A stretch of DNA of 43,174 bases, taken from positions 36,129 to 79,302 of the forward strand of contig JAGQTQ010000031.1 of NCBI GenBank assembly GCA_020438905.1. The letters are read 5' to 3'. The position numbers were made by a program, and so were the translations under genes. Positions within the stretch are counted from its first letter, which is position 1. The number at the start of each line of letters is the position of its first letter. The notes beneath the pieces are model-generated. The model did not search any database. It was given only the letters and a program-made list of their open reading frames with translations, and was not told where the DNA came from. This stretch comes from Mycobacterium sp. (lineage in GTDB: Bacteria; Actinomycetota; Actinomycetes; Mycobacteriales; Mycobacteriaceae). Below are positions 13,512-40,865 of the stretch, piece by piece.

Positions 13512-14077
13512 GCGCCCATGACCGCCAGGCCCCATTTGAGATGTTCGCTCCGGACCGACGCGATCCGTCCGCCCTGCACCGCCGGCTTGGGGTCGGATAC
13601 CGGTCCACCGCAGAGGCGGATCCGTGCCACCGTGGCGTCCAGATCCGGCGTTTTCAGTGCCAAGCCGATGAGTGCTGGTTCCCGACCTGTCGCGACAACC
13701 TCGATGAAGGCCTCGCCGACCCGGTAGAACGCCATTTCCGGCCCCTGCGGCCCTCGTGGGTGAAATCGCCTGCGCGGCGACGATCCCAACACCGCGTTGA
13801 GCGCCTCGACCGCCGAGTCCAGATTCGGCACCGTGTAGACGATGTGGTCGGCGGCGGTTACCCCACAGGGGTGCGCGGCCGGAACGGCCGAGGGGCATGT
13901 GACGGTCGGCACGCCGAGAACGGAGGGATCCGAATGGATCTCGTCGAATCCCCAGCCGTTGTCGCCGATGCTGCAACGGACCCGACCTACGGTGAATCCT
14001 CCACCGTCGACAACGAAACCGAGCGCCGCCCATGCCCGCTCATCGCCGGGTACGCCAATCCACGTGAGAGTAGACAT
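13508..14077 (-). CDS. VOC-superfamily (glyoxalase-like) protein
   Basis: A 189-residue protein with vicinal-oxygen-chelate features: ADHIVYTVPNLDSAVEALNA, VLGSSPRRRF, GPEMAFYRVGEAFIEVV and a C-terminal repeat GLALKTPDLDATVARI. His in ADHIVY and Glu in FIEVV sit where metal ligands usually lie. Substrate unknown. ATG 14077 is used; ATG 14086 is in frame 9 nt upstream. Its end overlaps the decayed transporter by 4 nt on the opposite strand. Confidence 0.75.
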   Translation of the reverse strand: MSTLTWIGVPGDERAWAALGFVVDGGGFTVGRVRCSIGDNGWGFDEIHSDPSVLGVPTVTCPSAVPAAHPCGVTAADHIVYTVPNLDSAVEALNAVLGSSPRRRFHPRGPQGPEMAFYRVGEAFIEVVATGREPALIGLALKTPDLDATVARIRLCGGPVSDPKPAVQGGRIASVRSEHLKWGLAVMGA

Positions 14078-14225
14078 GGACACCATCGTGGCAGCCCAAT
14101 CCGTTCGCCGGCACTGCGGCAGCACCACGTGAAGCCGGCGCAGTCCCTGCCGACGCGGTCGAACTCGATGCTGGCCGACTCGCTTCCCCGGGTCGCCCCA
14201 ACAGGCGTCGCCGTCGGTTGGCCGC

Positions 14226-14375
14226 CTTGATCCCCGCGGTATCCCCGCCCACGTCGCGAACGGTGGTGAACCCGCCCGAGACAGTGTCTTTGGCCCGAGA
14301 CAGCGTGGCCGCCACGATCTGGGACTGCGAGCCCATCATCAGATCGACCATCGTGTTGGCCATGAAGTGGGCCGG
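14226..14375 (-). pseudogene. Fragment of an amidohydrolase, copy of the gene at 39597-40865
   Basis: Read leftward, about 45 residues (MANTMVDLMMGSQSQIVAA, then TLSRAKDTVSGGFTTVRDVG and GDTAGIK) match the segment just after the metal-binding HSH of the intact amidohydrolase in this window, with about 80 percent identity by eye. The sequence before it is deleted and the match ends abruptly after GIK. It is a relic of a second copy, between a VOC gene and a cobalt-type permease. No function. Confidence 0.85.
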
Positions 14376-14419
14376 ACCCGCTGTCAACCGGAGCCGGCCC
14401 ACCGACGTCAAACCTCGGT

Positions 14420-15103
14420 TCAGGCGGGGTTGAGCAGGCGCCTTTCCAACAACGGGCTGTCCTTGAACTGGTGCAGGGTCTTGGCCGCCGCCAGGACGGT
14501 GAGATCGGCCAAGGGCTCGATGATGATCACGATCAGGTAGGCCGCGCCGAATGCCGCGATGCTCTGCACGGTCTGTGCGCCGAAGCCTTCGCCGTAGAGC
14601 GCCCAGAATCCCACCCAGGTCACGATGCCGGCCTGATAGGTCGTCGACAACGCCAGGGCCTGCCGGTATCGCAACTGCATGTACGGCGTATTCGGAGCGA
14701 TGATCCGCCCGGCGATGTACTGCAGCCCGAACAGCGGAACCAGCAACGTGGTGACGTTCATCCCATACTGCGGCAGATCGAACGGGGCGAATGACAACCC
14801 CTGCAGCAGCAGACCCGCCGCGAGCCCGATCGCCGCCGGAGCCATCCCGAACAGCAGGAACAGCGTCGATCCGAGGATCAGATGCACTTCGGAGACGCCC
14901 ACCGGGTAGTGCGGGAACACCTGAAAGAAGACGAACACCAGGGCGGTGGTGGACAGGCTCCGGAACAGCACGGGCGACACACCGCGCTCCTTGACCAACT
15001 GCCAGGCCGACCGAAGCGCGTACATGCCGGCTCCCCCGGCGGTGACGTAGCTGAGGATGATCTTGGGACCTTCGACGATCCCGGGTTCGATGTGCACGTT
15101 CAT
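14420..15103 (-). CDS. CbiM-like ECF-type cobalt/nickel transporter membrane component
   Basis: A 227-residue membrane protein starting MNVHIEPGIVEGPKI, which resembles the CbiM/NikM N-terminus that binds the metal through its first residues (typical MHIPEG). About six hydrophobic segments follow, with FGMAPAAIGLAAGLLLQG as a family-like block. ATG 15103 is chosen because it places the HIEPG motif at the N-terminus; GTG 15148 is an in-frame alternative. No CbiN, CbiQ or CbiO gene is adjacent, so the energising parts must be elsewhere or the protein works alone. A cobalamin riboswitch precedes it, which supports cobalt supply for B12 synthesis as its role. Confidence 0.78.
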   Translation of the reverse strand: MNVHIEPGIVEGPKIILSYVTAGGAGMYALRSAWQLVKERGVSPVLFRSLSTTALVFVFFQVFPHYPVGVSEVHLILGSTLFLLFGMAPAAIGLAAGLLLQGLSFAPFDLPQYGMNVTTLLVPLFGLQYIAGRIIAPNTPYMQLRYRQALALSTTYQAGIVTWVGFWALYGEGFGAQTVQSIAAFGAAYLIVIIIEPLADLTVLAAAKTLHQFKDSPLLERRLLNPA

Positions 15104-15186
15104 TCCATTCGGGACGAAACCGATGACCCATCGCCCGAAGACGCGCACCCCTTCGGCTGCGCGCCCATTCCACGAGGCGAAGTGCC

Positions 15187-15207
15187 GCCGGGCACGGCGC
15201 GCCCGGC
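15187..15207 (-). promoter_or_regulatory. Expression-platform hairpin of the cobalamin riboswitch
   Basis: GCCGGGC (15187-15193) pairs perfectly with GCCCGGC (15201-15207) around a 7-nt loop, directly after the aptamer and before the CbiM-like gene. No U-tract follows, so control of translation or Rho access is more likely than intrinsic termination. Confidence 0.4.
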
Positions 15208-15209
15208 AC

Positions 15210-15435
15210 GGTTGGCAGGTCTTCGGACTCGCAGGCCCACACCCTGGCGGGTGTACCTAGTGACCGTCGCTTCCCAACCCCACGGGGTCAGTGCTGTGGC
15301 GGCGTTCGTTCCTGCATACCGCTGCGGGACAGTCCCGGATTCCCACCGGGTTCCCTCTCGGAAGTGCGCTACCCGCTCGCACCACCTCGATTCCCTGACG
15401 CGACTCGCGGCGCGCAGGGAAAACCAACCGCGATG
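15210..15435 (-). ncRNA. Cobalamin (AdoCbl-type) riboswitch
   Basis: Read leftward, the region holds the conserved core GGGAACCCGGTGGGAATCCG with CTGTCCCGC just after it (about 15324-15355), and the 3-prime B12 box AGTCCGAAGACCTGCC (15214-15229), which fits the consensus rAGYCMGgAgaCCkGCc. Spacing between core and box is as expected. It lies 107 nt ahead of the CbiM-like gene. When cobalamin is plentiful the riboswitch should shut the transporter off. Confidence 0.93.
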
Positions 15436-18208: not shown

Positions 18209-18933
18209 CCCTTCGCCCTGATGGCCGTCTCGATCTCCTCGGCCGGGATCGCCTTGGTGCAGAAAAACCAATCCTCGCATTGCACGCCCTCGCCCTTGCC
18301 GTCCATACGCTCTTTAGCGGTTCCACACGAGCCCGCGGGCGGGACGATCACCGGCTCCCCCGGTCGCCAGTCAGCCGGCGTGGCGATGTCGTAATGGTCG
18401 GCGGTCTGCAACGCCTTGACCAGACGCAGAAGCTCATCGAAATTGCGCCCTGTGCTCAGCGGGTAGTAGATGACCGCCCGCACAACACCTTTGGGATCGA
18501 TGACGAACACCGCACGCACCGCCTTGGTGGAGTCCTCACCGGGCATGATCATGCCGTACCTGCGGGCGACCTCCATCGAGATGTCCTCAATCAGCGGGAA
18601 CGTCACCTCGACGCCCTTCATGCCGCGGAAACTGATCTTCTCCCTGATGGTGCGCAGCCAAGCGATGTGGCTGTACAAACCGTCCACCGAGAGCCCGACC
18701 AACTCGGTGTTGTACCGGGCGAACTCATCCTGCATCGAGGCAAAAGTCATGAACTCACTGGTGCACACCGGGGTGAAATCCGCGGGGTGGGAAAAGAAGA
18801 TCACCCACTTACCCAGATAGTCGGCCGGGAAATTCACCGGCCCCTGCGTGCTGACCGCGGTGAACGACGGCGCCGGATCACCGATACGCGGCATGCCGAC
18901 CACCGCGGCGGCGTCCCCTGGTTCTGTAGTCAT
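18205..18933 (-). CDS. Peroxiredoxin (Prx6-type, long C-terminus)
   Basis: A 242-residue peroxiredoxin. The peroxidatic Cys is in [16 protein letters not shown] (PxxxTxxC). [17 protein letters not shown] and [20 protein letters not shown] follow the family. The C-terminal extension carries [14 protein letters not shown], a Cys-x5-Cys pair typical of the archaeal-type subgroup, which may act as resolving cysteines. ATG 18933 has AAAGGA about 9 nt upstream. First gene of the operon with dps. A GC palindrome lies 41 bp upstream, in the likely promoter. Confidence 0.92.
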
Positions 18934-18973
18934 GATGCCAATTCCTTTCTGGACTGAGTCTAGTTTACGGTAC

Positions 18974-18985
18974 ACCCCCGGGGGT
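18974..18985 (-). promoter_or_regulatory. Perfect GC palindrome in the prx-dps promoter (CsoR/RcnR-type look)
   Basis: ACCCCCGGGGGT is a perfect 12-bp palindrome flanked by TAC and ATG (TACACCCCCGGGGGTATG). Operators of CsoR/RcnR-family sensors (copper, nickel or persulfide) have this C-run/G-run form. TAAACT downstream on the minus strand could be the -10, putting the palindrome between -35 and -10. No csoR gene is in the window. Confidence 0.5.
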
Positions 18986-19091
18986 ATGAATTCAACGGAG
19001 GCCATCCCGGATGTCCCCGCCCATGAGCGGCGGGCAACCTCCTTGAATGCCGCGCCCCCGACTCACCGCAGTCCGGCAAGAACGGCCCTGG

Positions 19092-19220
19092 TCACGGGGC
19101 CCTGCCTGTGCGCGGCGAAGGACGTTGGGGGACGACCACCGTGCCCGGGTAGTCCATCAGGGCGCCCGCCACTCGGTCGCTGTCAACCCGGCCTGCGACG
19201 AGGGCCACCGGCGTATGCAT
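19092..19220 (-). pseudogene. N-terminal fragment of a COG0523/CobW GTPase (Rv0106-like)
   Basis: ATG 19220 opens a 42-residue frame, MHTPVALVAGRVDSDRVAGA, then LMDYPGTVVVP, ended by TGA at 19092-19094. It reads like the start of the mycobacterial zinc-regulated COG0523 protein Rv0106 (MRTPVxLVAGQ..., GTVVVEHRFDG). The match stops before the GTPase motifs, so only the first 30 or so residues survive. AGGGGGAA lies just before the ATG. It diverges from the Zur-box ribosomal operon, so the box at 19288 could once have served both. An intact COG0523 gene lies at 25635. Confidence 0.65.
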
Positions 19221-19287
19221 TTCCCCCTCTTATTGGGAACAATTGCCACCCTGACACTGGCTACGCTACCGTGACTTGAGACGCAAG

Positions 19288-19308
19288 TCGATAACGATTG
19301 TCATTACC
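19288..19308 (+). promoter_or_regulatory. Zur box upstream of the alternative ribosomal protein operon
   Basis: TCGATAACGATTGTCATTACC contains the GATAAC-GAT-T(G/A)TCATT core also present before znuA in this window. TACCAT (19305-19310) overlaps it as a likely -10. Zur with zinc bound would repress, so the operon should be on under zinc limitation. Confidence 0.85.
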
Positions 19309-19328
19309 ATCAAACTGAAGGGGGCCAG

Positions 19329-19640
19329 GTGTCCGCGCACTGCCAGGTGACCGGGCGTTCACCGAGTTTCGGCAATTCGGTATCGCACTCGCATCGGCGC
19401 ACCCGCCGGCGCTGGAACCCCAACATTCAGCGCAACACCTACTACCTGCCGTCACAGGGGCGCAACATCACTCTGCGGGTCAGCACAAGGGGCATCAAGG
19501 TAATCGCCAAGAACGAACGGCGTCGCGCCATCGTGGCGCGCTACGCCGAACGCCTGCGCAAGTTCGGCCTGTCCCGGGTCAGGGTCCGGGAGATGGCACA
19601 CCGCGGCGAACTGCCCGGAATTCGCAAGGCGAGTTGGTAA
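19329..19640 (+). CDS. Chimeric ribosomal protein: Cys-minus L28 N-terminus fused to S14 pieces
   Basis: One uninterrupted 103-residue frame. Residues 1-58 are L28 of the zinc-independent type ([49 protein letters not shown]), with CQVTG where a zinc form would have CxxC. Directly after GIKVI come residues of S14: [16 protein letters not shown] from its N-terminus, then [20 protein letters not shown] and the end PGIRKASW. The usual order is separate L28, L33, S14 and S18 genes; here the end of L28, all of L33 and the middle of S14 (about 50 residues) are absent, in frame. GTG 19329 follows AAGGGGG. Whether the product is used by the ribosome is unknown. Confidence 0.88.
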
Positions 19641-19646
19641 CCGGCG

Positions 19647-19901
19647 ATGGCACCCAGAATCAAACCGACCAGGCGACTCCCCGCGGCCACTCCGCTGCGC
19701 AAGAAAGCCAACCCGTTAACGAAGCTCGGCATCACCACGGTCGACTACAAGGACACCGCGCTACTGCGGACGTTCATCTCCGACCGGGGCAAGATCAGGT
19801 CTCGGCGCGTCACCGGGCTGACCGTTCAGCAGCAACGCCAGGTGGCAATGGCGATCAAGAACGCCCGCGAGATGGCGCTGCTACCGTTCTCCAACTCTTA
19901 G
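19647..19901 (+). CDS. rpsR: Ribosomal protein S18, Zur-regulated paralogue
   Basis: An 84-residue S18: [58 protein letters not shown] and [20 protein letters not shown]. There are no cysteines, so it is the zinc-independent form (C-minus) that replaces the zinc-binding paralogue when zinc is scarce. It starts 6 nt after the chimeric L28/S14 ORF and shares its Zur-box promoter. It looks complete, in contrast to its damaged neighbour. Confidence 0.95.
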
Positions 19902-19911
19902 CGGAAGCTTC

Positions 19912-20646
19912 TCAGTACGCGTACGGGTTGCGCGGCGCCTCGATGGGTGTCACCGCCGAGACCGTCAGAGTCGGAGTCGACAACCCGGCGGCGTCGGAGG
20001 GTTTGGGCACCACGGTGCCCTCCACCCGCAGCCAGGTCTCCTCAGGGTAGGAGGCCGCCTTCGCCGCGGCCGGGCCGCTGAGATGGAGTCGGGCCAGCTG
20101 ACCGTCGGCTGCACAGCAGATGATGACGACCCGCCCCAGATCGATTCCGCCCGGCTCTTTTACGGTGAACCCGGTGACGGTTATCAGCCGCCCCTTGAGT
20201 GTGGAGGCTGTGTCCCTGTTCGCGCGAACCACCACTTCCGGTAGCGGCAGTTCTGGTGCGCGACCGGCGGGCAATGCCGGAAAGGGCCGAGACAGCACCC
20301 GGCCGGGCAGCGCGGTGGCCGAAGGCTCAGCCGCCCGTGCACCCAGCGCCGGCGGGACCACAAATCCCAGCAGCGCAACGGGTACCACCAGCAGCCACAC
20401 CACCGCGGACCGGTGCTCGTGTCCGATATCGCCTTCGTGGTGATCTGCATCGTCTCCGCGGCGTCCGCGGGCGCGGAGGTCCCGGCTAGCCGCGGCCAGT
20501 GCCAGCATGACGAGAAACACCGCCGTCACCGCCAACCACGGCATGAGGGCGGGCTTGACGTAGCGGGTGAAGGTGCCGGTGACGACGATCGCGGCAGTGC
20601 ACATACCCAGGAGGAACAGGACCACGTTCTCGGTGTTGCGACTCAC
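19912..20646 (-). CDS. TIGR03943-family membrane-anchored protein, copy 1
   Basis: A 244-residue protein with two N-terminal membrane helices, a His/Asp-rich linker (DDADHHEGDIGHEHR, about residues 64-78), a third helix, and an extracytoplasmic domain with TLKGRLITVTGFTVKEPGGI, LGRVVIICCAADGQLARLHL and ETWLRVEGTVVP. The ICCAAD cysteine pair is the family hallmark. TIGR03943 proteins occur beside the permease family encoded next door and are often zinc-regulated; the reaction is unknown. Its start overlaps the permease stop by 4 nt. A second, frameshifted copy is at 23240. Confidence 0.88.
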   Translation of the reverse strand: MSRNTENVVLFLLGMCTAAIVVTGTFTRYVKPALMPWLAVTAVFLVMLALAAASRDLRARGRRGDDADHHEGDIGHEHRSAVVWLLVVPVALLGFVVPPALGARAAEPSATALPGRVLSRPFPALPAGRAPELPLPEVVVRANRDTASTLKGRLITVTGFTVKEPGGIDLGRVVIICCAADGQLARLHLSGPAAAKAASYPEETWLRVEGTVVPKPSDAAGLSTPTLTVSAVTPIEAPRNPYAY

Positions 20647-21647
20647 CGGGCGCCTCCGAGGAATAACAACCCCACCAACGTGGCGAGGACTGTAGCCACG
20701 ACGAAGGTCGCCGGCGCGAACCGCATGGCGAATGCGCGGCCGAAAACGCCCGTCTGCATGGCGAACAGCTTTGCGTCAACCGCCGGTCCCACGACCAGAA
20801 ACACCAGCCGCGGCAGCAGCGGCAACATGGTCAGACTCGCGGCCACGAACGCATCCGCCTCCGAACACAAGGCCAAAACGAAGGCGAGGACCGCCATGGT
20901 GATGATCCCGAGCAACAGTTGGCCGGCCAGATGCTCATACACCGCCGGCGGCATCAGCATGTTCAGCGCGGCGGCGGTGGCGGCGCCGAGTACCAGATAG
21001 GAAGCGGCCTGCAAAAGGTCGTGGCGTGCCGCCTCGGTGAAAACCGTCCACTTCGACCCGCCATCGTGGGTCGACCGTGGCAGACGCCGGGTGATCCATT
21101 CAGTGCGGCCCCATCGCGACCACGCAGCCCCCATGGCGACCGCGGTCAGCAGTGATGCGGTGAAACGCGCACCGACCATGGCCGGCTCGCCGGGAAAGGC
21201 CACCGCTGTCGACACCAGGACCACGGGATTGATCGCTGGCGCGGCGAGCATGAAGGTCAAGGCGGCGGCACCTTGGCGATCTTTCGATTCACTGTCACCG
21301 AACAACCTGCGTGCCACCGGAACGGTCCCACATTCGCAGCCGGGCAAGGCGGCGCCGCCGATCCCCGCGGTGACGATCGCCATACCTGATCGCCGGGGAA
21401 GCCAGCGGGCCAGCCGGTCCGGGGAGACATACGCCGCGATCAAGCCGCTGATCACCACGCCGAACGCCAGGAAGGGCAGTGCTTGGACGAAGACACCGCA
21501 GAACACCGTGGTAGCAGTCGCCAGGTCGGGCCGGCCGACCAGGAAAGCACGCACCGTCCCTGCAAACAGGGCCAGCCCAATGAGGCCCGCGAAGAGAACC
21601 TGAATCGACCTGTCGAATCGCCGACGGGTCGGCCCGGCAACCGTCAC
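20643..21647 (-). CDS. Permease (DUF318/ArsP-like), copy 1
   Basis: A 334-residue protein with about eight to ten membrane helices. Signatures are VFVQALPFLAFGVVISGLIA, GGAALPGCECGTVPVARRLF (with PGCECG, a candidate metal or thiol site), FMLAAPAINPVVLVSTAVAF and ALCSEADAFVAAS. The family includes arsenic efflux ArsP and many uncharacterised members. It is paired by a 4-nt overlap with a TIGR03943 protein, the partnership found in actinobacterial metal loci. GTG 21647 has AGGA about 8 nt upstream. The paralogue at 22260 has the same motifs in the same order. Direction of transport is not known. Confidence 0.87.
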   Translation of the reverse strand: MTVAGPTRRRFDRSIQVLFAGLIGLALFAGTVRAFLVGRPDLATATTVFCGVFVQALPFLAFGVVISGLIAAYVSPDRLARWLPRRSGMAIVTAGIGGAALPGCECGTVPVARRLFGDSESKDRQGAAALTFMLAAPAINPVVLVSTAVAFPGEPAMVGARFTASLLTAVAMGAAWSRWGRTEWITRRLPRSTHDGGSKWTVFTEAARHDLLQAASYLVLGAATAAALNMLMPPAVYEHLAGQLLLGIITMAVLAFVLALCSEADAFVAASLTMLPLLPRLVFLVVGPAVDAKLFAMQTGVFGRAFAMRFAPATFVVATVLATLVGLLFLGGAR

Positions 21648-21834
21648 CGACTCATCCTGCCAATCCCAAGAGCGTGATGTACGCCTCTAATAAGCCCCAC
21701 GAACTGCATCGCACCGAACACCGAGACGAGCAGCAGAACCCGACATCAACCCCGCCGACGGGGTATCGAAACACGGGCTATGCCAGCGCTGCCCGCACCG
21801 GTGATCCATCTGGCCGGCTCGACGGTCAGTCCCG

Positions 21835-22092
21835 TCAGTGTTCGTGTACGTGGTCGCCGTGCTGGAAGTGCCGGTGTCCGTCGTGGAGATGGTCGACGTG
21901 GTCACCGTGCTGAACCGTCTCACACCCGTCGCCCTCGGTGTGCGCCGAGCCGTGATCGGAGTGGATCTTTGCCTCTGGGTGTCGCTCGCCGTCATGGATG
22001 TGGTCGATATGGTCGCCGTGAACGACGGTCTGGTGACCGTCACCCGGCAGGTGCTCATGGTCGCTTGGCTCGACGTGCTCCGCAGGTGTCAT
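21835..22092 (-). CDS. Histidine-rich small protein, probable zinc-binding
   Basis: An 85-residue protein with 22 His and one Cys. It contains two related blocks, VVHGDHIDHIHDGERH and VQHGDHVDHLHDGHRHFQHG, with the repeat unit HGDHxDHxHDG, and ends DHVHEH. There is no signal peptide or membrane segment, so it should be cytoplasmic. Such sequences bind several Zn(II) or Ni(II) ions and act as stores or chaperones. It lies upstream of, and on the same strand as, permease copy 1, and divergent from permease copy 2, so it sits at the centre of a two-sided set. Its separate function has not been shown as far as I know. Confidence 0.85.
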   Translation of the reverse strand: MTPAEHVEPSDHEHLPGDGHQTVVHGDHIDHIHDGERHPEAKIHSDHGSAHTEGDGCETVQHGDHVDHLHDGHRHFQHGDHVHEH

Positions 22093-22151
22093 GTTCCCTC
22101 CAAAGTAGGCCTGTTGGCATCCTAGCCGGATGATCCTTGTAGGCTGCGGTG

Positions 22152-22175
22152 TAATTGGGGATTGTTTTCATTAGA
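22152..22175. promoter_or_regulatory. Possible degenerate Zur box between the His-rich gene and permease copy 2
   Basis: GGGGATTGTTTTCATTAG keeps one half of the Zur core found elsewhere in the window (GATTGT...CATTA; on the other strand TGAAAAC-AATC), but the left half is poor. It lies in the divergent region where shared zinc control would be expected. Confidence 0.4.
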
Positions 22176-22221
22176 ACCGACCTTCGCGGCCACTGAGGCG
22201 CGCGTCGGCGCTGGGGAGGAA

Positions 22222-22263
22222 ATGCAGGATTCGACTCTCACCGCGATGTGGCGGCCGCAGTGA
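22222..22263 (+). CDS. Short leader ORF coupled to permease copy 2
   Basis: ATG 22222 follows the best ribosome site in the region (GGGGAGGA, 22213-22220) and encodes MQDSTLTAMWRPQ. Its TGA overlaps the GTG start of the permease (GTGA at 22260). It could be a leader peptide that couples translation, or the true permease start displaced by a frameshift. Confidence 0.45.
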   Translation: MQDSTLTAMWRPQ

Positions 22264-23243
22264 AAACCGCCCGGTTCACGGAATCGGCCTCGATGCCCGT
22301 CTTGGTTGCGGCGGTGGTGGCTTTCGCGTTGCTGGGCAGCACATTACGAGCGGCTGTCTATGACAGCGCGGCGCTGTCGACAGCCGGCACGGTGTTCAGC
22401 GGCATCTTCGTCCAAGCCCTGCCGTTCCTGGCGCTGGGAGTCTTGCTGAGCGCGCTGATCGCGGTCTTCGTGACTGCAGATCGGCTGTCCCGGTGGCTGC
22501 CTCGCCGTCCGGCCGCAGCGGTACTCACCGCGGCCGCCGGCGGTGCCGCACTGCCCGGCTGCGAATGCGGTTCGGTACCAATAGCCCGTCGACTGTTCGG
22601 TGAAGACGCCGTGGGCGCGGCCGCCCTGACTTTCATGCTGGCCGCCCCTGCGATCAACCCGGTGGTGGTCGTCTCCACAGTGGTGGCGTTCCCCGGCCAA
22701 CCCCAGATGGTGTTCGCCCGCGTCGGCGCATCCTTGGTCACCGCGATCGTCATGGGCCTGGCCTGGTCCCGCTGGGGCCGCGCAGAGTGGATCACCCGAC
22801 GGCTGCCCCGCGGCACCGACGGCCATGGATCCCGCTGGCACACTTTCACCGAGGCCGCCCGTCATGACTTCATTCAGGCCGCGTCCTATCTGGTGATCGG
22901 CGCCGCCGCTGCGGCTGCGTTGCACGTGATAGTTCCGGACTGGTTGATGGAGCATCTTGCGGGCCAACTTCTGCTCGGCGTCCTGGTGATGGCCGTGCTG
23001 GCAGTGGTGCTCTCTTTGTGCTCGGAAGCCGACGCGTTCGTGGCCGCCAGCCTGACCATGGTGCCCCTGGTTCCCCGCCTGGTCTTCCTCGTCGTCGGCC
23101 CGGCCATCGACGTCAAGCTCTTCGCGATGCAGTCGGGAATGTTCGGTCGCGCCTTCGCGGTCCGATTCGCCCCCGCAACTTTCGTGGTGGCCACCGTGGC
23201 CGCAACCGTTATCGGTGTATTGGTGCTGGGCCGCGGCGCATGA
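22260..23243 (+). CDS. Permease (DUF318/ArsP-like), copy 2
   Basis: A 327-residue membrane protein closely related to the one at 20643 and divergently placed. Shared blocks are FSGIFVQALPFLALGVLLSA, GGAALPGCECGSVPIARRLF, TFMLAAPAINPVVVVSTVVA, HTFTEAARHDFIQAASYLVI and LCSEADAFVAASLTMVPLVP. GTG 22260 is preferred because it overlaps the stop of a short leader ORF with a strong ribosome site; GTG 22248 is in frame but has no such site. It overlaps the TIGR03943 gene downstream by 4 nt. The copies differ most at the N-terminus and near SESKDRQ (copy 1 only). Confidence 0.87.
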   Translation: MKTARFTESASMPVLVAAVVAFALLGSTLRAAVYDSAALSTAGTVFSGIFVQALPFLALGVLLSALIAVFVTADRLSRWLPRRPAAAVLTAAAGGAALPGCECGSVPIARRLFGEDAVGAAALTFMLAAPAINPVVVVSTVVAFPGQPQMVFARVGASLVTAIVMGLAWSRWGRAEWITRRLPRGTDGHGSRWHTFTEAARHDFIQAASYLVIGAAAAAALHVIVPDWLMEHLAGQLLLGVLVMAVLAVVLSLCSEADAFVAASLTMVPLVPRLVFLVVGPAIDVKLFAMQSGMFGRAFAVRFAPATFVVATVAATVIGVLVLGRGA

Positions 23244-23958
23244 GTCGCGAGGCCGAGAACGCGCTGCTGTTGTTGGTCGGAATCGCGACCGCCGTGATCA
23301 CCATCGGCGGCGCCTACACCCGGTACGTCAAAGCCTCACTGCTTCCCTGGCTGAGCCTGACCGCTGTGATCGTCATCGCCCTGGCGCTGGTATCCATCGT
23401 CGCCGACATCCGGCGCGGATCCGGACCCGACGACGACCACAGCGGCCATTCTCATCGGGGATCCATCGCGTGGCTGCTCCTGGTCCCCGTTCTCGTCCTG
23501 GTCTTCATTACCCCTCCGGCCCTGCGCCCGGAGGCCGCCGCACCGAAAGTCACCGCCGTATCAACCGAGGTGCTTCGCCGGCCGTTCCCGGCGCTACCGG
23601 ACGGGCGCGCGCCCGAGGTGTCGCTGACCGACGTCATGATCCGCGCGGCCCAGGACACCGCGGGAACACTGAACGACCGTCTCATCTCCGTCGTCGGCTT
23701 CACCCTCCCGGAGGCCGAAGGCGTCGACCTAGGGCGGGTCGTGATCATCTGCTGTGCCGCCGATGCACAACTGGCCCGCATCCACCTGCGCGGGCAGGCG
23801 ATCGGCGATCTGAAAAATTATCCCGAGGAGACGTGGCTAAGCTAAGAGTCGAGGGCACCGTCGTTCCCGATAGAGCCAATGGGGATTCGACGTCGATACC
23901 GACCCTGCTCGTCCAGTCCGCCACCCGGATCGAAGCCCCAGCCAACCCCTACGGCTGA
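23240..23958 (+). pseudogene. TIGR03943-family protein, copy 2, truncated by a 5-nt duplication
   Basis: From ATG 23240 the frame follows copy 1: two membrane helices, a His-containing linker (DDDHSGHSHRG), TLNDRLISVVGFTLPEAEGV, LGRVVIICCAADAQLARIHL and YPEETWL. It then hits TAA at 23843. The sequence CTAAG occurs twice in tandem at 23837-23846. Removing one copy restores ETWLRVEGTVVP and the rest of the domain to the TGA at 23956, ending EAPANPYG as in copy 1 (EAPRNPYAY). The protein as read is 201 residues and lacks the last strand region of the outer domain. It could be partly functional, since the CC motif is kept. Confidence 0.85.
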
Positions 23959-24065
23959 CGCCGACGCGTTCACCGAACCGGTTCGGCGCGCGAACAGCGA
24001 TAACCCGCGGCCCACCGTTATCAATTGCGCGTCTGAAACCGCCGAGGCACATGTCACGAACCTCC
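23957..24065 (+). pseudogene. C-terminal relic of a benzoylformate decarboxylase-like gene
   Basis: Just after the TIGR03943 stop, the plus strand reads DADAFTEPVRRANSDNPRPT, then VINCASETAEAHV. This matches the end of the intact decarboxylase at 39569 (VRAGIADRQRPTLINCATET, VEAMV). Only about 35 residues remain and no start is attached. It is a second relic of the gene pair found intact at 37953-40865; the other is at 14226. The match is short, so a search is needed to confirm it. Confidence 0.65.
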
Positions 24066-24100
24066 CGGTCGGCGGTCAAGCCCAGATGAACCGGCCGCGC

Positions 24101-24616
24101 TCAGGCCGGCCGGGCCGTCGGCCCGGAGTCGTCGCGGCGTTGCTTGGCTGCGGCGAAGCGCACGATCGTGCGAATCAGTTGGACCAGGTCGGCCGCACTG
24201 CGGGCTTCGGCGCCCTCGGTCACCACCCACAACCGGGGACCATTGATGTGGCGCGTCCGCCGAAGACGCAGCCGCGCAACAGGTTCGGTGAACACCGTCC
24301 GCAGCTCCTCAGTGCCATCCGGGCGACGGTGAACGATCTGAGCCTGCAGAGGCTGCCCGTCAATGCGCTGCACCGACACCGCCGCGGGACCCGTGCACAC
24401 CTCGATCGTCGCGCTGGGCAGCGTATCGGCTGTGCCCACCTGGATCAGCCCGTCGCGAAGTGGGACGCTCAAAGCGACTGTCCCGAAGACCATCCCATCC
24501 ATTGCGTCATCGATGTGTTCGGCGGCCGCAGAATCGGCCTCAGCGCTCGTGGACCCGGTCTCGGCGCTGGAGGTGGCGGTGGCCGCCGTGGATGTGGTTG
24601 ATGCGGTCCCCGTCAT
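24101..24616 (-). CDS. Hypothetical protein behind Zur-like boxes
   Basis: A 171-residue soluble protein of unrecognised family. Residues 1-32 are a Ser/Thr/Ala-rich low-complexity tail. The rest looks like a compact beta-rich domain: GMVFGTVALSVPLRDGLIQV, ATIEVCTGPAAVSVQRIDGQ, RLRLRRTRHINGPRLWVVTE and a final helix ADLVQLIRTIVRFAAAKQRR. The strand-turn arrangement resembles type-III-secretion-chaperone-like or DUF3710-like folds only loosely, so no function is proposed. ATG 24616 has AAAGGAA about 8 nt upstream. It diverges from a small secreted protein across two Zur-like sites. Confidence 0.75.
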   Translation of the reverse strand: MTGTASTTSTAATATSSAETGSTSAEADSAAAEHIDDAMDGMVFGTVALSVPLRDGLIQVGTADTLPSATIEVCTGPAAVSVQRIDGQPLQAQIVHRRPDGTEELRTVFTEPVARLRLRRTRHINGPRLWVVTEGAEARSAADLVQLIRTIVRFAAAKQRRDDSGPTARPA

Positions 24617-24659
24617 TGCCTGTTCCTTTGCCCTCTGGGAAGCTAGGTCGGCATCAACC

Positions 24660-24680
24660 TTAACGACAATCGGTGTCAAC
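24660..24680 (-). promoter_or_regulatory. Zur-like box A, divergent promoter region
   Basis: Read leftward, TTGACACCGATTGTCGTTAA aligns with the rpmB-type box (GATAACGATTGTCATTA) in its core, CCGATTGTCxTTA. It is 44 bp upstream of the minus-strand unknown gene. Confidence 0.6.
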
Positions 24681-24685
24681 TACTA

Positions 24686-24704
24686 TTGACGACCATTGTC
24701 GCTT
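24686..24704 (+). promoter_or_regulatory. Zur-like box B, divergent promoter region
   Basis: TTGACGACCATTGTCGCTT is the plus-strand counterpart of box A; the two form an inverted pair (GACAATCGGTGTCAA and TTGACGACCATTGTC). It is 81 bp upstream of the small secreted protein. Confidence 0.55.
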
Positions 24705-24784
24705 GCCTTTACCTTCGGAAGACCGCCCGATTATCGGGCCGTTTAGGTTGCCGATCACCGTCGGTTCAGACCAGGAGCGTTCTT

Positions 24785-25054
24785 ATGGGAAAGCGGTTGA
24801 GCACGATCGGGCGTCCGGCGGCAATGACCGCCACCGGCGTTGCCCTCGCGGGCATGGTGGCGATAACGGTCGCGTCGGGTGGGGCTTCGGCGGCTGAGGA
24901 CGGACCACCGATGCCGAGTGCAGGGCCCAGCGAAACCCAGGAGTCGAGTCACGCCGGCCCGATCGAAGATCGTGACCCGCACTCGTTCGCCCCGACGATG
25001 CCCAAGGATGTTTGTTCGGATAGCACCACCTGCGGTTTCGCCGAAGTGCACTGA
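24785..25054 (+). CDS. Small secreted protein, unknown
   Basis: An 89-residue protein with a Sec signal peptide (MGKRLSTIGRPAAMTATGVA, LAGMVAITVASGGASA, cleavage near residue 36) and a mature part of about 53 residues. The mature part is rich in Pro, Ser, Asp, Glu and His and ends with a Cys pair, KDVCSDSTTCGFAEVH. The two cysteines plus acidic and His residues could bind metal, but this is inference. AGGAG lies 6 nt before ATG 24785. It is divergent from another unknown gene across paired Zur-like boxes. Confidence 0.75.
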   Translation: MGKRLSTIGRPAAMTATGVALAGMVAITVASGGASAAEDGPPMPSAGPSETQESSHAGPIEDRDPHSFAPTMPKDVCSDSTTCGFAEVH

Positions 25055-25160
25055 GGCGGCGCCTAACCCGGACGCTCCGATTCGGTGGCGTTGCGCGGCA
25101 GCGAAATGCGTTGTCGCGGGTTCGAGGATGTGCGCTGCCATCGGACGGCAACGCGATTGT

Positions 25161-25182
25161 TGTACAGTGTTTTCTGTATACA
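25161..25182 (+). promoter_or_regulatory. Operator of the ArsR gene (GTACAG-N6-CTGTAT)
   Basis: TGTACAG (25161-25167) and CTGTATACA (25174-25182) form an imperfect inverted repeat with a 6-nt spacer. It lies just upstream of TAATCT (25193-25198), the probable -10, so it covers the -35 region. A near-identical half-site arrangement occurs at 30363. Confidence 0.65.
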
Positions 25183-25205
25183 GTTATTCATGTAATCTAG
25201 CGGTC

Positions 25206-25517
25206 ATGGGAACTGCGATCGCTGCGCACGACGCACTAACGCGGTTCGGCTATGCATTGTCCGACGCGACGCGCACGCAGATATTGCTGAGGTTGCGCAC
25301 AGGGGCCTCGTACCCGTCAGAACTCGCCGACACGATCGGCGTGTCGCGGCAAACCCTGTCGAATCACCTCACCTGCCTGCGCGGATGCGGTTTGGTGGTG
25401 GCAGTCCCCGAAGGTCGGCGCACCCGCTATGAGCTTGCGGATTCGCGAATCGGGCTTGCTCTGGAAGACCTCCTCAACCTGGTTGTTGCAGTCGATCCCA
25501 ACTGGTCTGGGCCCTGA
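25206..25517 (+). CDS. ArsR/SmtB-family metal sensor, CmtR-like
   Basis: A 103-residue winged-helix repressor. SELADTIGVSRQTLSNHLTC is the recognition region, followed by LRGCGLVVAVPEGRRTRYEL (wing). Cys57 and Cys61 sit exactly where M. tuberculosis CmtR has two of its Cd/Pb ligands. The third CmtR ligand, Cys102 near the C-terminus, is absent: the tail here reads AVDPNWSGP. The metal site is therefore incomplete or different. TAATCT 7 nt before ATG 25206 indicates a leaderless transcript, and an inverted repeat lies in the -35 region, suggesting autorepression. No cation ATPase gene is adjacent. Confidence 0.88.
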   Translation: MGTAIAAHDALTRFGYALSDATRTQILLRLRTGASYPSELADTIGVSRQTLSNHLTCLRGCGLVVAVPEGRRTRYELADSRIGLALEDLLNLVVAVDPNWSGP

Positions 25518-25634
25518 GCGCAGTCGCCGAATCCAAACAGACAGCGTTATGCGCCTTTCTGTCCGCCTTGCCGCAGGCCGGTCTTGGTTGTCACCAGTCT
25601 GTTCGCCTGGCCATGGCCCGATCCTGTTGCGGCC

Positions 25635-26663
25635 CTAGATGCTGAGTTGCCGTAACCGCTGCCAACGCCGCATTCCCGCCGCCGCTACCTGCTTTGTGCA
25701 AGGCCGCAGCGCCTGCTCAAGACGCTCACGGACATCGGGGCGATCGAGGTCGATGCCGATCGCCACCAGATGGCTGCCCCGCACCCCCGCGACTGCGGTC
25801 GTCACATGTGTCGATGCGCCAACGACATTGACGAGATAGTGGCGGGCACCCACTGTCACGGTGCCCTTCATTCGGTAGACCCCGCGCGGCGGTCGGTCGA
25901 GCAGGTCGACCAACGGGCCTGGATCGACGGGCCCGTCGAACATGACGGTGACCGAGTCCGCACTCACATGATCATGAGCGTCGTGCGAGTGCGCGGACTC
26001 CCCGATGAGCAACTCGCGAAACGACATCTGCCCCGTACCGCCATCGCCTTCGGCGACATCGTAAAGCAACTGCGGATCCACTTTTCCAGCGACAGCGCCG
26101 ACGACAGGAGCAGCCGGATTACTCTCGCGTACACGGCATTCGATGCGACGCAGCACCTCGTCGCGCATGTCCGCGGCGATCTGATCCAATTTGTTGACGA
26201 CGACGAGAGAGGCGGCACCGTAGCGCCCCGGCGGAGCGGCCACCGTATCGACGGTGGCGAAATGCTCGACGGCGTCGATCACGTCAACGACGCCGCCGTG
26301 CCGAACCCGGTCAACACCGCTGAAGCGAATCATCCGCGACATCGCCACGGGGTCGGCTACCCCACTGGCTTCGATGATGATGGCATCTAGTGCCAGCTTC
26401 GGGTCGGCCAACTTCTTCAACGCATCATCGAGAATTCCATCCTCCGGCAGGTGACAGATGCAGCCGCCGGCAATGGATACCGGTTCGTCGACCTGCCCGG
26501 CAACCAGGCCGGCATCGACGTTCAGCTCGCCGAAGTCGTTGATGATCAGGCCGATCCGGGCGCCAGGTGCACGCAAGACATGGTTGAGAAGAGTTGTCTT
26601 TCCCGCCCCGAGATAGCCGGTCAGGGCAATGACAGGAATGGCAGGGCTACTGCGATCGACCAC
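25635..26663 (-). CDS. COG0523/CobW-family GTPase, probable zinc metallochaperone
   Basis: A 342-residue P-loop GTPase. Walker A is GYLGAGKTTLLNHVL (about residue 15), the family cysteine motif is GGCICHLPED (C-x-C with His where the third Cys of CxCC is usual), then IIEASGVADP and NKLD as the base-specificity motif. A His cluster SAHSHDAHDH lies between the GTPase and C-terminal CobW_C domains. Zur-regulated members (ZigA, ZagA, YciC types) pass zinc to key enzymes under zinc starvation. GTG 26663 is preceded by GATAAT 6 nt upstream, suggesting a leaderless start. It diverges from znuA across a Zur box, so both are probably under one control. Confidence 0.88.
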   Translation of the reverse strand: MVDRSSPAIPVIALTGYLGAGKTTLLNHVLRAPGARIGLIINDFGELNVDAGLVAGQVDEPVSIAGGCICHLPEDGILDDALKKLADPKLALDAIIIEASGVADPVAMSRMIRFSGVDRVRHGGVVDVIDAVEHFATVDTVAAPPGRYGAASLVVVNKLDQIAADMRDEVLRRIECRVRESNPAAPVVGAVAGKVDPQLLYDVAEGDGGTGQMSFRELLIGESAHSHDAHDHVSADSVTVMFDGPVDPGPLVDLLDRPPRGVYRMKGTVTVGARHYLVNVVGASTHVTTAVAGVRGSHLVAIGIDLDRPDVRERLEQALRPCTKQVAAAGMRRWQRLRQLSI

Positions 26664-26746
26664 CGTTTCATTATCGCCGGGTCGGCATCGCTCGTGTCGT
26701 TGACGATCACGGCGACGCGGCGACCCTCCCGGTGTCGCGCCGTAAA

Positions 26747-26765
26747 ACGATAACGATTATCATTG
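26747..26765. promoter_or_regulatory. Zur box between the COG0523 gene and znuA
   Basis: ACGATAACGATTATCATTG has perfect GATAA/TTATC arms at 26749-26761. TATCAT (26758-26763), 7 nt before GTG 26771, is the likely -10 of znuA and lies inside the box, so bound Zur would block RNA polymerase. Confidence 0.9.
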
Positions 26766-26770
26766 CGCCC

Positions 26771-27742
26771 GTGGCCCCCACTCCTCACCATGCTCCGCTA
26801 GCAGCCGTCGCCGTCCTTGTCATGCCGTTCGGCTTGGTGGCCTGCAGTTCCAACTCCACCAGCGGGTCGTCCTCGTCCAGTTCGGCGTCCGTCGAATCGG
26901 GCTCCGCGGCTGCCCAGCCGGCAGCCTGCCCGACCAACCCGGTCGACATCGTCGTCAGCGTCGACCAATGGGGCGACATCGTCTCCGAACTGGCCGGAAG
27001 CTGCGGCAACGTGAAGACCATCCTGGCCAGCTCCTCGGTCGACCCGCACGACTACGAGCCCTCCCCGTCGGACGGTGCGGCCTTCAGCGGCGCGCAACTC
27101 GTTGTCGTCAACGGCGTCGACTACGACGCGTGGGCGTCCAAGCTGGCCGCGACGTCGGCACCGAACGTGCCCGTGATCGACGCCGGAACGGTCACCAACA
27201 CACCCGGGGGTTCCAACCCCCATCTCTGGTACAACCCGGCGGCGGTCACGGCAGTCGCCGACGCGGTGACCGCGGAACTGACCAAGCTGGAGCCGAAGGC
27301 CGGCGACTACTTCACCACCCAACGGTCCAATTTCAGCACCGCGATGAAGCCGTACGACGAGCTGCTCGCCAAGATCAAGGCCGGCGCATCCGGAAAATCC
27401 TATGCCGCAACCGAATCGGTGTTCGACTACCAGGCTCAAGCGCTGGGCCTGGTCGACAAGACACCGAAGGGCTACAAGACCGCATCGGCCGCTGAGACCG
27501 ATCCCTCGCCGGCCGACCTCGCCGCGTTCACTCAGGCGCTGTCCGGTGGCCAGATCGACGTCTTGATCTACAACACTCAGACCGAAGGGGCGATACCGGA
27601 ACAGATTCGCCGGGCCGCAGAGAGTGCCGGGGTGCCCGTCGTCGACATTACTGAGACGGTGCCCTCGGGCCAGACGTCCTTCGAGGGGTGGCAGGAGGCC
27701 CAGCTGACCGCCCTGGCCAAGGCACTCGGTGTCGCAGTCTGA
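26771..27742 (+). CDS. znuA: Zinc ABC transporter substrate-binding lipoprotein
   Basis: A 323-residue cluster A-I binding protein. After a signal sequence the lipobox is LVACSSNS, then a Ser-rich linker and the binding domain starting VDIVVSVDQWGDIVSEL. Likely ligands are in SSVDPHDYEPS (His) and SNPHLWYNP (His); the third ligand region SYAATESVFDYQAQALG has no His, so the site differs from classic ZnuA. No His-rich loop. GTG 26771 is chosen because upstream codons lie in the Zur box and a TANNNT hexamer sits 7 nt before it. First gene of znuA-znuC-znuB-fur. Confidence 0.87.
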   Translation: MAPTPHHAPLAAVAVLVMPFGLVACSSNSTSGSSSSSSASVESGSAAAQPAACPTNPVDIVVSVDQWGDIVSELAGSCGNVKTILASSSVDPHDYEPSPSDGAAFSGAQLVVVNGVDYDAWASKLAATSAPNVPVIDAGTVTNTPGGSNPHLWYNPAAVTAVADAVTAELTKLEPKAGDYFTTQRSNFSTAMKPYDELLAKIKAGASGKSYAATESVFDYQAQALGLVDKTPKGYKTASAAETDPSPADLAAFTQALSGGQIDVLIYNTQTEGAIPEQIRRAAESAGVPVVDITETVPSGQTSFEGWQEAQLTALAKALGVAV

Positions 27743-28511
27743 TTCCCCTGCCGCCACGGCGCTGATGTTCGACGACGTCAGCGCCGTGCGCGGCGGCCGG
27801 GTGATCTGGTCGCAAGGCAGCTTCGAAATTCCCGCCGGTGAGATTGTGGCGGTGATCGGCTCCAACGGCGCCGGCAAGACCACGCTGCTGCAGATGATCC
27901 TGGGTCTGATTCCGGTCGGACACGGTGAACTACGGGTCTTCGGGCGACCTCCGGGCACCGACCGTGACCGGATCGGCTACGTCCCCCAGCACTACGCGGA
28001 AAGCGCCGGCGAGGCGATCCGCGCCCGCGACGCGGTCCTGCTGGGCCTCAACGGCGGCCGCTGGGCATTCGGCCGGACCTCGAAGGCCGACCGCCGCCGT
28101 GTCGAGGACGCTCTGACAGCTGTCGACGCCCATCATTTCGCCGATCATCGGTTGGCGACGTTGTCCGGGGGGCAGCGTCAACGGGTGGCGATCGCCGAGG
28201 CAATTGTGTCCCGACCCGACATGATCGTCCTCGATGAGCCGCTGGCCTCCCTGGATCTGCGGAGCCAGCATGAAATCGTCACGCTGCTCAAGTGCCTGCA
28301 CCACGAACTCTCGGTCACCATCGTCGTGGTCGCTCACGACCTCAATCCGTTCCTGTCGATCCTCGACGGTGCGATCTACCTTCTCGATGGGCACGCACAC
28401 TATGCCGGCGTCAACGACGTGATCGAGAACGAATTACTCACCCACCTGTACGGAACACCGATCCAGGTCGTCCGCACCCCCCAGGGTGATCTCTACGCCA
28501 GGAGTGTCTGA
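27729..28511 (+). CDS. znuC: Zinc ABC transporter ATP-binding protein
   Basis: A 260-residue ABC ATPase: Walker A GSNGAGKTT, Q-loop YVPQHY, signature LSGGQRQRVAIAEAI, Walker B MIVLDEPLASLD and H-loop VVAHDLN. GTG 27729 overlaps the znuA stop by 14 nt. It drives the ZnuB permease. All catalytic motifs are intact. The C-terminal part (about residues 210-260, with HAHYAGVNDV) matches metal-type transporters. Confidence 0.9.
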   Translation: MSQSDSPAATALMFDDVSAVRGGRVIWSQGSFEIPAGEIVAVIGSNGAGKTTLLQMILGLIPVGHGELRVFGRPPGTDRDRIGYVPQHYAESAGEAIRARDAVLLGLNGGRWAFGRTSKADRRRVEDALTAVDAHHFADHRLATLSGGQRQRVAIAEAIVSRPDMIVLDEPLASLDLRSQHEIVTLLKCLHHELSVTIVVVAHDLNPFLSILDGAIYLLDGHAHYAGVNDVIENELLTHLYGTPIQVVRTPQGDLYARSV

Positions 28512-28515
28512 TCCC

Positions 28516-29448
28516 ATGACTCAGCACCTCCTAGCCCTCGGCTACCAAGAGAATTGGTGGTCGATCCTCACTGCGCCGTTCATGCGCAACGCCGTACTCG
28601 GCGGCACGATCGTCGCCATGGCCGCAGGGCTCATCGGATACTTCATCGTGGTGCGGCAGACCGCCTTCGCCGCCCATGCGCTGGCGCATATCGGATTGCC
28701 CGGCGCGACCGGCGCGGTGCTGCTCGGCCTACCGGTCACCTTCGGCCTGGGTGTGTTCTGCGTCGGCGGGGCGCTGGTGATTGGTTTCCTCGGCAAACGC
28801 GCCGCCGAGCGGGAAGTCATCACCGGGACCGTGTTGTCGTTCGCGATGGGGTTGGGCCTGTTCTTCAACTCGCTGGCCACCAAGAGTTCCTCGACGATGA
28901 CCAACGTGCTGTTCGGCAACCTGCTGGCGATCTCCTACGATCAGCTGCTGACCTTCGGGGCCCTGCTGTTGGTGTTGGCGCTGTGCATCGGATTCGTTTA
29001 CCGGCCACTGTTGTTCAGCTCGGTGAACCCCGAGGTGGCGGAGGCCAAGGGTGTGCCGATCCGGGCCCTCTCGATCGTCTTCATGGCGCTGCTGGGGGTA
29101 TCGGTGACCATGGCCGTCCAGGCCGTCGGCACGTTGCTGTTGTTCGCTCTCGTCGTGACCCCGGCGGCGACCGCGATCATGCTGACCCCGCGGCCCGGTC
29201 TGGCGATGCTGATCTCGGGAGTGATCAGCATCGTCTCGGTCTGGGCGGGTCTGGCCGCCTCTGCGATGTTCAACGTGCCGCCCAGCTTCCTCATCGTGAC
29301 GATCGCCTGTGCGGTCTGGCTCGTCGTGTGGCTGGGCGATCGCCGCCAGCGCACCGTTGCATGCGCAATCGATAGCGGTGCGCCGGTGCTGGAGCCCCCT
29401 GCCTTGTCCGAACCCGCGAAGCCGAGTTCGTCGACAGCGACACCGTGA
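28516..29448 (+). CDS. znuB: Zinc ABC transporter permease
   Basis: A 310-residue ABC-3 family permease with about eight helices: TIVAMAAGLIGYFIVVRQTA, HALAHIGLPGATGAVLLG, NVLFGNLLAISYDQL, EVAEAKGVPIRALSIVFM (coupling helix) and AVGTLLLFALVVTPAATAIM. ATG 28516 begins 4 nt after the znuC stop; ATG 28486, in frame, would overlap znuC by 26 nt. The C-terminal 25 residues are Pro/Ser-rich. The next gene, a Fur-family regulator, overlaps by 4 nt. Confidence 0.9.
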   Translation: MTQHLLALGYQENWWSILTAPFMRNAVLGGTIVAMAAGLIGYFIVVRQTAFAAHALAHIGLPGATGAVLLGLPVTFGLGVFCVGGALVIGFLGKRAAEREVITGTVLSFAMGLGLFFNSLATKSSSTMTNVLFGNLLAISYDQLLTFGALLLVLALCIGFVYRPLLFSSVNPEVAEAKGVPIRALSIVFMALLGVSVTMAVQAVGTLLLFALVVTPAATAIMLTPRPGLAMLISGVISIVSVWAGLAASAMFNVPPSFLIVTIACAVWLVVWLGDRRQRTVACAIDSGAPVLEPPALSEPAKPSSSTATP

Positions 29449-39596: not shown

Positions 39597-40865
39597 TCAA
39601 CCGAGGGTGTTCTTGACGATCACCCCGTCCTTGACGACGGTGGCCAAGCCCGTCGTCGCATCCGCGAGAACCTTCAGGTCGGCAGTCGGATCGCCGTTGA
39701 GCACCAGCAGGTCTGCCCAGGCTCCCGGGGTGATCTGCCCCAGCCGGGCGGACCTGTACGGGTCCCGATCGCCGGCGAGACGGAGCAATTCCGCATTGCC
39801 CGAGGTCACCATCTTCAGTGCTTCGACGTTGCTGAAGTATTCGCCCAGCCTGGCCACCATCTGGCTTTGGAGGCCGTTGTTCTCGGGGGCGAAGAGCAGA
39901 TCGGTGCCCCAGGCCACCTTCACCCCGTACTGTCTGGCCCACCGGTAGACCTGGGGTGTCCCCGCGCACATCTGGTGGTTCTTGGCCGCGCTGTCGCCGC
40001 TGAGGAAGCTGTGGTCGTGTTCGGCGAACGGCTGGGTGGACAGCCACACCTCACGCTCGGCCAGCATGGCGATCGTGGCCTCGTCGGCCAGATGCCCGTG
40101 TTCGATCGACTTCACACCCGCCTCCACCGCGCGGCGGATACCGGTCACGTTGTAGACGTGGGTGGCCACATAGGTGCCGTAATCTTCGGCGGCCTGCACC
40201 GCGGCCCGAAGTTCGGCCGGGGTGAACTGGATCGTTGACAGCGAGTCGTAGAAGGAGGCGACCCCGCCGCCGGCCATCAGCTTGATCTGGGAGGCGCCGA
40301 GTTTGAGTTGCTCGCGGACCGCGGCCAGCACCCGGTCAGGGCCGTCGGCAACCCGCATGAACCCGATGGCCTCGGCGTGAGCCTGCGGACCGCCCAACGC
40401 CGTCGGACGGTCGTACACGAATCCGAAGTCGCCGTGTCCGCAGGTTTGCGAGATCGCCGCCTGGCTGGGGTAGATGCGCGGGCCCAGCGCCGGTTCGGCG
40501 TCGATCACCTTCTTGATTCCCGCGGTGTCTCCGCCCATATCCCGAACAGTGGTGAATCCGCGCAGGACAGTGCCTTTGGCTCGGGCTATGGTGGCCGCAA
40601 CGACCTGGGACGGCGAGCCCATCATCAGATCCACCATCGTGTTGGCCATGCCGACCAAATGGGAATGCGCGTCGACCATGCCTGGCATCAGCACCCGGCC
40701 CGCGCCGTCGATGACCGTGCCGACACCGGTCTCGGAGATCGGGGAGGCCTCGACGGCCACGATGGCCGGGCCGTCGATCAGAACGTGTCCGGAGACCAGT
40801 CCGTCGGCCAGTCCGTCGAAAATCTCGACGTTCTTAATCAGCACCCGAGTATCGCTGCTGCCCAA
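39597..40865 (-). CDS. Metal-dependent amidohydrolase (imidazolonepropionase-related)
   Basis: A 422-residue TIM-barrel amidohydrolase. Metal ligands are visible: His67 and His69 in MVDAHSHLVG, Lys in SQIKLMAGGG (carboxylated Lys position), His in ATHVYN, His in SIEHGHLAD and Asp in VAWGTDLLF. The N- and C-terminal strands form the usual small sandwich (VLIKNVEIFDG, GAWADLLVLNGDP). It resembles Xaa-Pro dipeptidase-type and HutI-type members; substrate open. TTG 40865 is chosen because AGGAG lies 5 nt upstream; GTG 40928 is the longer alternative. No signal peptide. A relic of a second copy is at 14226. Confidence 0.85.
   Translation of the reverse strand: MGSSDTRVLIKNVEIFDGLADGLVSGHVLIDGPAIVAVEASPISETGVGTVIDGAGRVLMPGMVDAHSHLVGMANTMVDLMMGSPSQVVAATIARAKGTVLRGFTTVRDMGGDTAGIKKVIDAEPALGPRIYPSQAAISQTCGHGDFGFVYDRPTALGGPQAHAEAIGFMRVADGPDRVLAAVREQLKLGASQIKLMAGGGVASFYDSLSTIQFTPAELRAAVQAAEDYGTYVATHVYNVTGIRRAVEAGVKSIEHGHLADEATIAMLAEREVWLSTQPFAEHDHSFLSGDSAAKNHQMCAGTPQVYRWARQYGVKVAWGTDLLFAPENNGLQSQMVARLGEYFSNVEALKMVTSGNAELLRLAGDRDPYRSARLGQITPGAWADLLVLNGDPTADLKVLADATTGLATVVKDGVIVKNTLG

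Follow-up and report, generated by a model that had tools for sequence, protein, structure and literature searches.

The window, which is the whole 43,174-nucleotide stretch of Mycobacterium sp. DNA that we analyzed, belongs to contig C131 in a draft assembly (3.69 Mb, 189 contigs, 84.9% complete). It carries an open reading frame (ORF) that runs, without a change of frame, from the beginning of ribosomal protein L28 into the start of S14 and then to the end of S14, followed closely by a gene for S18 (Table 1). We refer to the zinc-independent form of a ribosomal protein as C- and to the cysteine-bearing paralogue as C+. An earlier note, made from the sequence by itself, had described this order of parts and had called S18 intact, and both descriptions are borne out. 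The L28 family (PF00830) matches residues 4-61 of the ORF with an E value of 1.4e-25 and a score of 89.5 bits against a family cut-off of 27, so the L28 domain expected of a C- bL28 is present. The segment that L28 has at its own C-terminus (residues 60-78) is missing, and residues derived from S14 stand in its place. Only the second half of S14 is recognized by its Pfam profile (PF00253, E 8.9e-12, ORF residues 76-102, profile positions 28-54), and the 17 + 28 S14 residues retained, of about 101, do not amount to a near-complete C- uS14. L33 is missing from the operon, and S18 is the one gene of the four that is whole.

Table 1. Coordinates of the features discussed (window positions, except in the last row)
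Feature	Coordinates	Strand	Remarks
30-codon stub of divergent CobW gene	19131..19220	-	66.7% identity to residues 1-30 of the G057 protein
Zur-like site GATAACGATTGTCATTACC	19290..19308	+	top matrix match in the window; upstream of the ORF
L28::S14 chimeric ORF	19329..19640	+	103 codons; GTG start, TAA stop
C- L28 residues 1-59	19329..19505	+	G057 alignment; PF00830
Break 1, L28 codon 59 / S14 codon 7	19503..19506	+	ATCG flanks the 246-base gap on both sides
S14 N-terminal piece, 16 residues	19506..19553	+	G057 DNA identity
Break 2, 150-base gap relative to G057 within S14	between 19553 and 19554	+	alignment
S14 C-terminal piece LRKFG...ASW, last 28 residues to the S14 stop	19554..19637	+	Pfam; G057 alignment
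Intact C- S18	19647..19901	+	PF01084, E 2.6e-24; ATG 6 bases past the chimera stop
DUF1980 and ArsP-type permease	19912-21644		zinc-related island
His-rich ORF	21835-22089		no Pfam match
Second ArsP copy	22248-23240		zinc-related island
CobW	25635-26660		zinc-related island
ZnuABC	26732-29445		zinc-related island
S14(1-29)::S18 chimera	L145:701-988		G020; 2-contig genome, estimated 100% complete

Regulatory Site, Neighborhood, and Paralogues

We built a matrix for the Zur-like site from the equivalent upstream region of 44 relatives, whose source sites score at least 19.0; the site in front of the chimera scores 24.3, the maximum in the window, and from GA through the final A of its core the sequence matches the Zur consensus given in PMC7174638. 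That the operon is Zur-controlled, as the earlier note put it, is a fair inference from this site rather than a demonstration.

Divergent from the operon lies the stub of a CobW gene. The protein at the equivalent place in the close relative G057 has 400 residues; the stub is its only match below an E value of 1 in the window, and at an E value of 0.001 the host genome contains no match to the CobW gene besides the stub. In 13 other distinct mycobacterial operons, alignments of the G057 protein begin at its residue 1 and end at residue 372-400, so that at the level of alignment the gene is nearly full length there. These 13 operons came from 15 loci (L118 is on the contig of L040, and L155 is the locus studied here), loci with short flanks having been left out. 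The neighbor of L28 in M. smegmatis is MSMEG_6069, a CobW-like gene described as encoding Mrf, the recruitment factor for a ribosome hibernation protein (PMC7174638, PMC13418864), and by position and family the divergent gene may be regarded as Mrf-like. Beyond S18, from 19912 to 29445, the window holds what looks like a zinc-related island. Elsewhere in the window, a stretch of the minus-strand ORF at 14040-15242 (MANTMVDLMMGSQSQIV...) resembles, by eye, the amidohydrolase-like ORF at 39597-40928, as if it were a gene fragment.

A search for normal copies of the proteins elsewhere in the assembly, as the earlier note had proposed, succeeded in part. C+ forms of L28 and L33, and also of S18, are encoded, and loss of the C- forms therefore need not harm growth when zinc is available. 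No other S14 scores above the Pfam cut-off in this 84.9%-complete assembly; S8 was likewise not found there, so the usual S14 neighborhood is probably missing from the assembly. We considered whether the cell had lost its only S14 and rejected the idea, since the absence of S8 as well makes it probable that the usual S14 simply went unassembled.

Comparison with the Nearest Intact Operon

The nearest intact operon belongs to genome G057, where it lies on the reverse strand of locus L009; it has the order L28, L33, S14, S18, and its downstream permease region is that of the window. Three colinear blocks relate the two operons, with DNA identities of 90.2%, 90.2%, and 87.4%: the first comprises the initial 174 bases of L28, and the second comprises 51 bases of the S14 start, beginning at 19503. 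The gap between the first two blocks, 246 bases in G057, contains the L28 tail, all of L33, and the start of S14; that between the second and third, 150 bases, lies inside S14. From the L28 start to the S18 start there are consequently 318 bases in the window versus 714 in G057. The spacing of 6 bases between the upstream stop codon and the S18 ATG is the same in the two genomes. This comparison confirms the earlier note's claim that the end of L28, all of L33, and the middle of S14 have been lost, and the junctions it placed at about 19500 and 19553 are close to the breaks as mapped. The sequence common to the two sides of a join is 4 bases at break 1 and at most about 2 bases at break 2. Measured against this close relative, then, the operon has lost genes and is an eroded one. 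In the L28 part a second locus, L118, is as close as G057 (90.1% each), and its operon is without S14 and S18.

The Open Frame and Selection on the Retained Parts

The earlier note had argued that a decayed operon should carry stop codons, an argument that proves weak. We simulated 20,000 random deletion pairs in the intact G057 operon, with ends in the same genes as the real breaks, and the frame stayed open to the S14 stop in 29.8% of them; both deletions were in frame in 11.5%. An outcome that chance produces in about 30% of cases is weak evidence of selection.

The L28 part differs from that of G057 by 14 synonymous and 3 nonsynonymous changes (dN/dS 0.06) and from that of L118 by 11 and 6 (dN/dS 0.17), with control values from 663 pairs having a median of 0.108 and a 95th percentile of 0.188. 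The S14 parts have 8 synonymous and 7 nonsynonymous differences from G057 (dN/dS 0.28), the 95th percentile among 653 control pairs being 0.33. None of the retained parts contains a stop, and all three ratios fall inside the control ranges. Over 49 codons, S18 differs from its G057 counterpart by 12 synonymous changes and 1 nonsynonymous change. A three-way comparison that includes L118 assigns the differences in the L28 part to branches: of the synonymous and nonsynonymous changes, 5 and 3 fall on the window branch, 9 and 0 on that of L009, and 6 and 3 on that of L118. Two residues of the L28 part are private, K36N and K54R, at positions where all 44 other sequences have K; two of the 44 relatives have as many private changes at invariant columns, and R occupies position 36 in two solved C- L28 sequences. 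Compared with the same 44 relatives, the S14 parts and the S18 core have no private residues. (Duplicate loci L040, L049, L061, L064, L078, and L085 were left out of the dN/dS, private-residue, site-matrix, and spacing counts.) Relaxed selection on the retained parts was considered as a further candidate, and neither the dN/dS values, which lie within the control range, nor the few private residues give a clear sign of it. Retained parts without visible decay, together with an intact start codon, Zur-like site, and S18, fit either a recent deletion or continued function, and the lack of obvious decay leaves room for a function of the hybrid itself.

The Fusion and Other Lesions among Relatives

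Among the matches listed for 396 genomes of the genus, this one included and with at most 12 candidates scored per genome, only the genome studied here has a stop-free match over residues 1-103 (E 1e-31). The search for the same fusion in relatives that the earlier note had called for thus returns, among the matches listed, this genome alone. A scan of species genomes with patterns that included the two junction peptides yielded 583 relatives, and in the best 80 of these 583 the L28 ORF is 74-79 codons long without exception (80/80), so that none of the 80 loci is fused. The best named match within those 80 is in Mycolicibacterium senegalense, and those in other mycobacteria and in Nocardia are nearly as good. 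Ten plasmid records match positions 18900-20000, none over 80% of that stretch, and one of them, from Nocardia, is unannotated there. Two Nocardia C- S14 genes (L050:3401-3808 and L060:3401-3760) match over 408 and 360 bases compared with the usual 303 or so, as if they contained insertions.

Lesions of other kinds are not rare. Among the matches listed, 87 of 148 genomes of the genus carry C- L28 at better than 1e-20, and 69 of the 148 have a C- S14 at 1e-18; S14 is missing in 18 of the 87 C- L28 carriers including this one, or 17 of the 86 others, in a side count whose threshold is our own choice and in which some genomes are incomplete. When the operons of the 17 other carriers were inspected, S18 was absent from the stretch read in 11. 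In G058 and G146, S14 is lost and S18 is kept; in G013 a different ORF occupies the S14 position. Two further genomes (loci L028 and L147) offer side observations: G081 lacks S14 and has an S18 that has lost its middle, and in G040 all that is left of S18 is an end piece of 31 codons after the stop of L33. In G020, residues 1-29 of S14 are fused in frame to S18 from about its residue 14, giving an ORF of 96 residues (Table 1). Among the matches listed for the 396 genomes, G020 contains the only full-length match to this second chimera (E 1e-34); 26 other genomes match it from residue 7 or later only, which we take to be their S18. In G097 (L153, reverse strand), a genome counted as S14-positive, a frameshift in S14 produces one long ORF that continues into S18. 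Judged from these sequences, varied lesions are common in the C- operon, with two other joined ORFs (G020 and G097) besides the one described here.

Eight operons with a lesion in S14, those of the window and of G097 included, have S18 sequence left, and in all 8 the S18 start lies no more than 6 bases from the upstream stop or S18 is fused in frame. Of 37 operons with both S14 and S18, 24 offer a candidate S18 start no more than 7 bases from the S14 stop and independent of how S14 ends, 12 have only a forced GTG there, and 1 (L012) has none. The spacing between S14 and S18 is partly forced, because an S14 that ends in TGG TGA contains a GTG. To judge from spacing, translation of S18 may lean on the frame that precedes it.

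Discussion

We suspect, with a probability of roughly three in four, that the chimeric ORF is the remnant of an eroding, Zur-controlled C- operon that once read L28-L33-S14-S18, and that its open frame may still lead ribosomes to S18. The locus would have lost L33, most of S14, the tail of L28, and all but a stub of the divergent CobW/Mrf gene. Two deletions, or perhaps one complex event, would have produced the chimera, the first deletion having presumably arisen at the 4-base repeat ATCG, and the joins leave a single frame that begins with L28 and runs on as far as the S14 stop, as is seen in the alignment with G057. At low zinc the operon should be derepressed and a short, basic chimera made, a protein that we would not expect to work as a hybrid of L28 and S14. 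If there is a remaining use for it, its translation may deliver ribosomes to the S14 stop, which lies 6 bases short of the S18 start, and S18 could thereby still be produced. The earlier note left a choice between a purpose-made hybrid and two in-frame deletions that just happened; the latter fits better, since the fusion occurs in 1 of 396 genomes among the matches listed, lesions of varied kinds occur elsewhere, and the Mrf-like gene next to it is a stub.

The chimera could instead be a working alternative L28, in which a basic S14 helix replaces the C-terminal helix and which 50S subunits incorporate under zinc starvation. The L28 body (residues 1-59, which on this view would bind rRNA) is nearly complete and conserved, phmmer alignments to solved C- L28 chains pass the junction and reach residue 73-78, and a multiple alignment sets 11 residues of the ORF opposite AVVARLR. 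Yet the tail adds just 2.8 bits to the score of the L28 profile, which 191 of 2,000 shuffled tails equal, and we have rejected the notion that the S14 helix mimics that of L28, which the alignments suggest, because the likeness does not exceed chance. The other C- L28 proteins that we inspected keep their own C-terminus, and the arrangement occurs in 1 of 396 genomes among the matches listed. A predicted model places strands at residues 33-40 and 45-52 and helices at 53-61, 65-79, and 83-92, the second helix following the L28 hairpin as this explanation would have it; with a mean pLDDT of 58.8, a pTM of 0.34, and no intact L28 as a control, the low-confidence model supports neither side. On balance we consider a working L28 of this kind unlikely. 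A broader proposal, that deletion repeatedly makes chimeras which are translated under zinc starvation (L28::S14, the S14::S18 of G020, and the frameshifted S14-S18 of G097), with at least L28::S14 entering ribosomes in the role of an L28 whose tail is foreign, seems to us decidedly unlikely as a whole.

A fragmented draft of 189 contigs at 84.9% completeness invites the suspicion that the joins are an assembly error or a mixture of strains. The sequences shared at the joins (4 bases and at most about 2) are far too short for a collapse of the assembly graph, however, and the frame is clean. A comparable chimera is found in G020, whose genome is in 2 contigs and estimated to be 100% complete, and the nearby Mrf stub indicates that DNA has been lost from the locus; we therefore regard an artifact as very improbable. 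It is hardly credible that the ORF encodes a true hybrid of the large and small subunits, made under zinc starvation and binding both subunits, for example, or jamming their assembly. Pieces of both proteins do lie in frame under a Zur-like site, but so little of S14 is left, with its middle gone, and the arrangement is so rare (1 of 396 genomes, among the matches listed) that the case is poor, and a hybrid that harmed ribosomes at low zinc would probably face counter-selection.

If the ORF is indeed the remnant of an eroding operon, the C- operon is less uniform among mycobacteria than PMC5912738 states, with S14 often lost from operons that retain L28. The lesions would then serve as natural experiments on which C- proteins can be dispensed with and on whether translation of S18 depends on its upstream neighbor. 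If, on the other hand, ribosomes do use the hybrid, it would be a natural ribosomal chimera of an unusual sort. We found no report of such a ribosomal-protein fusion in the open-licence literature searched, which is limited evidence of novelty.

The system to which the locus is plainly related is the mycobacterial operon for alternative ribosomal proteins, L28-L33-S14-S18, represented by MSMEG_6068-6065 (PMC5912738, PMC7174638). The window resembles it in gene order, in the Zur-like site, in the divergent CobW gene, here a stub, and in the presence of ZnuABC in the region; it differs in that only S18 is whole, L33 is gone, L28 and S14 are joined and shortened, and Mrf is reduced to 30 codons. 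The C- operon is stated to be present in all mycobacteria except M. leprae and to be truncated, to just two genes, in M. avium strains (PMC5912738). Like that truncated operon, the one described here is a mycobacterial C- operon that has lost genes; unlike it, as it is described there, the present one has deletions whose ends fall within genes and which join two genes in frame. The nearest parallel in kind is the S14::S18 ORF of G020, also an in-frame chimera in the same operon, although it joins other genes at other breakpoints, has S18 inside the fusion, and leaves L28 and L33 intact.
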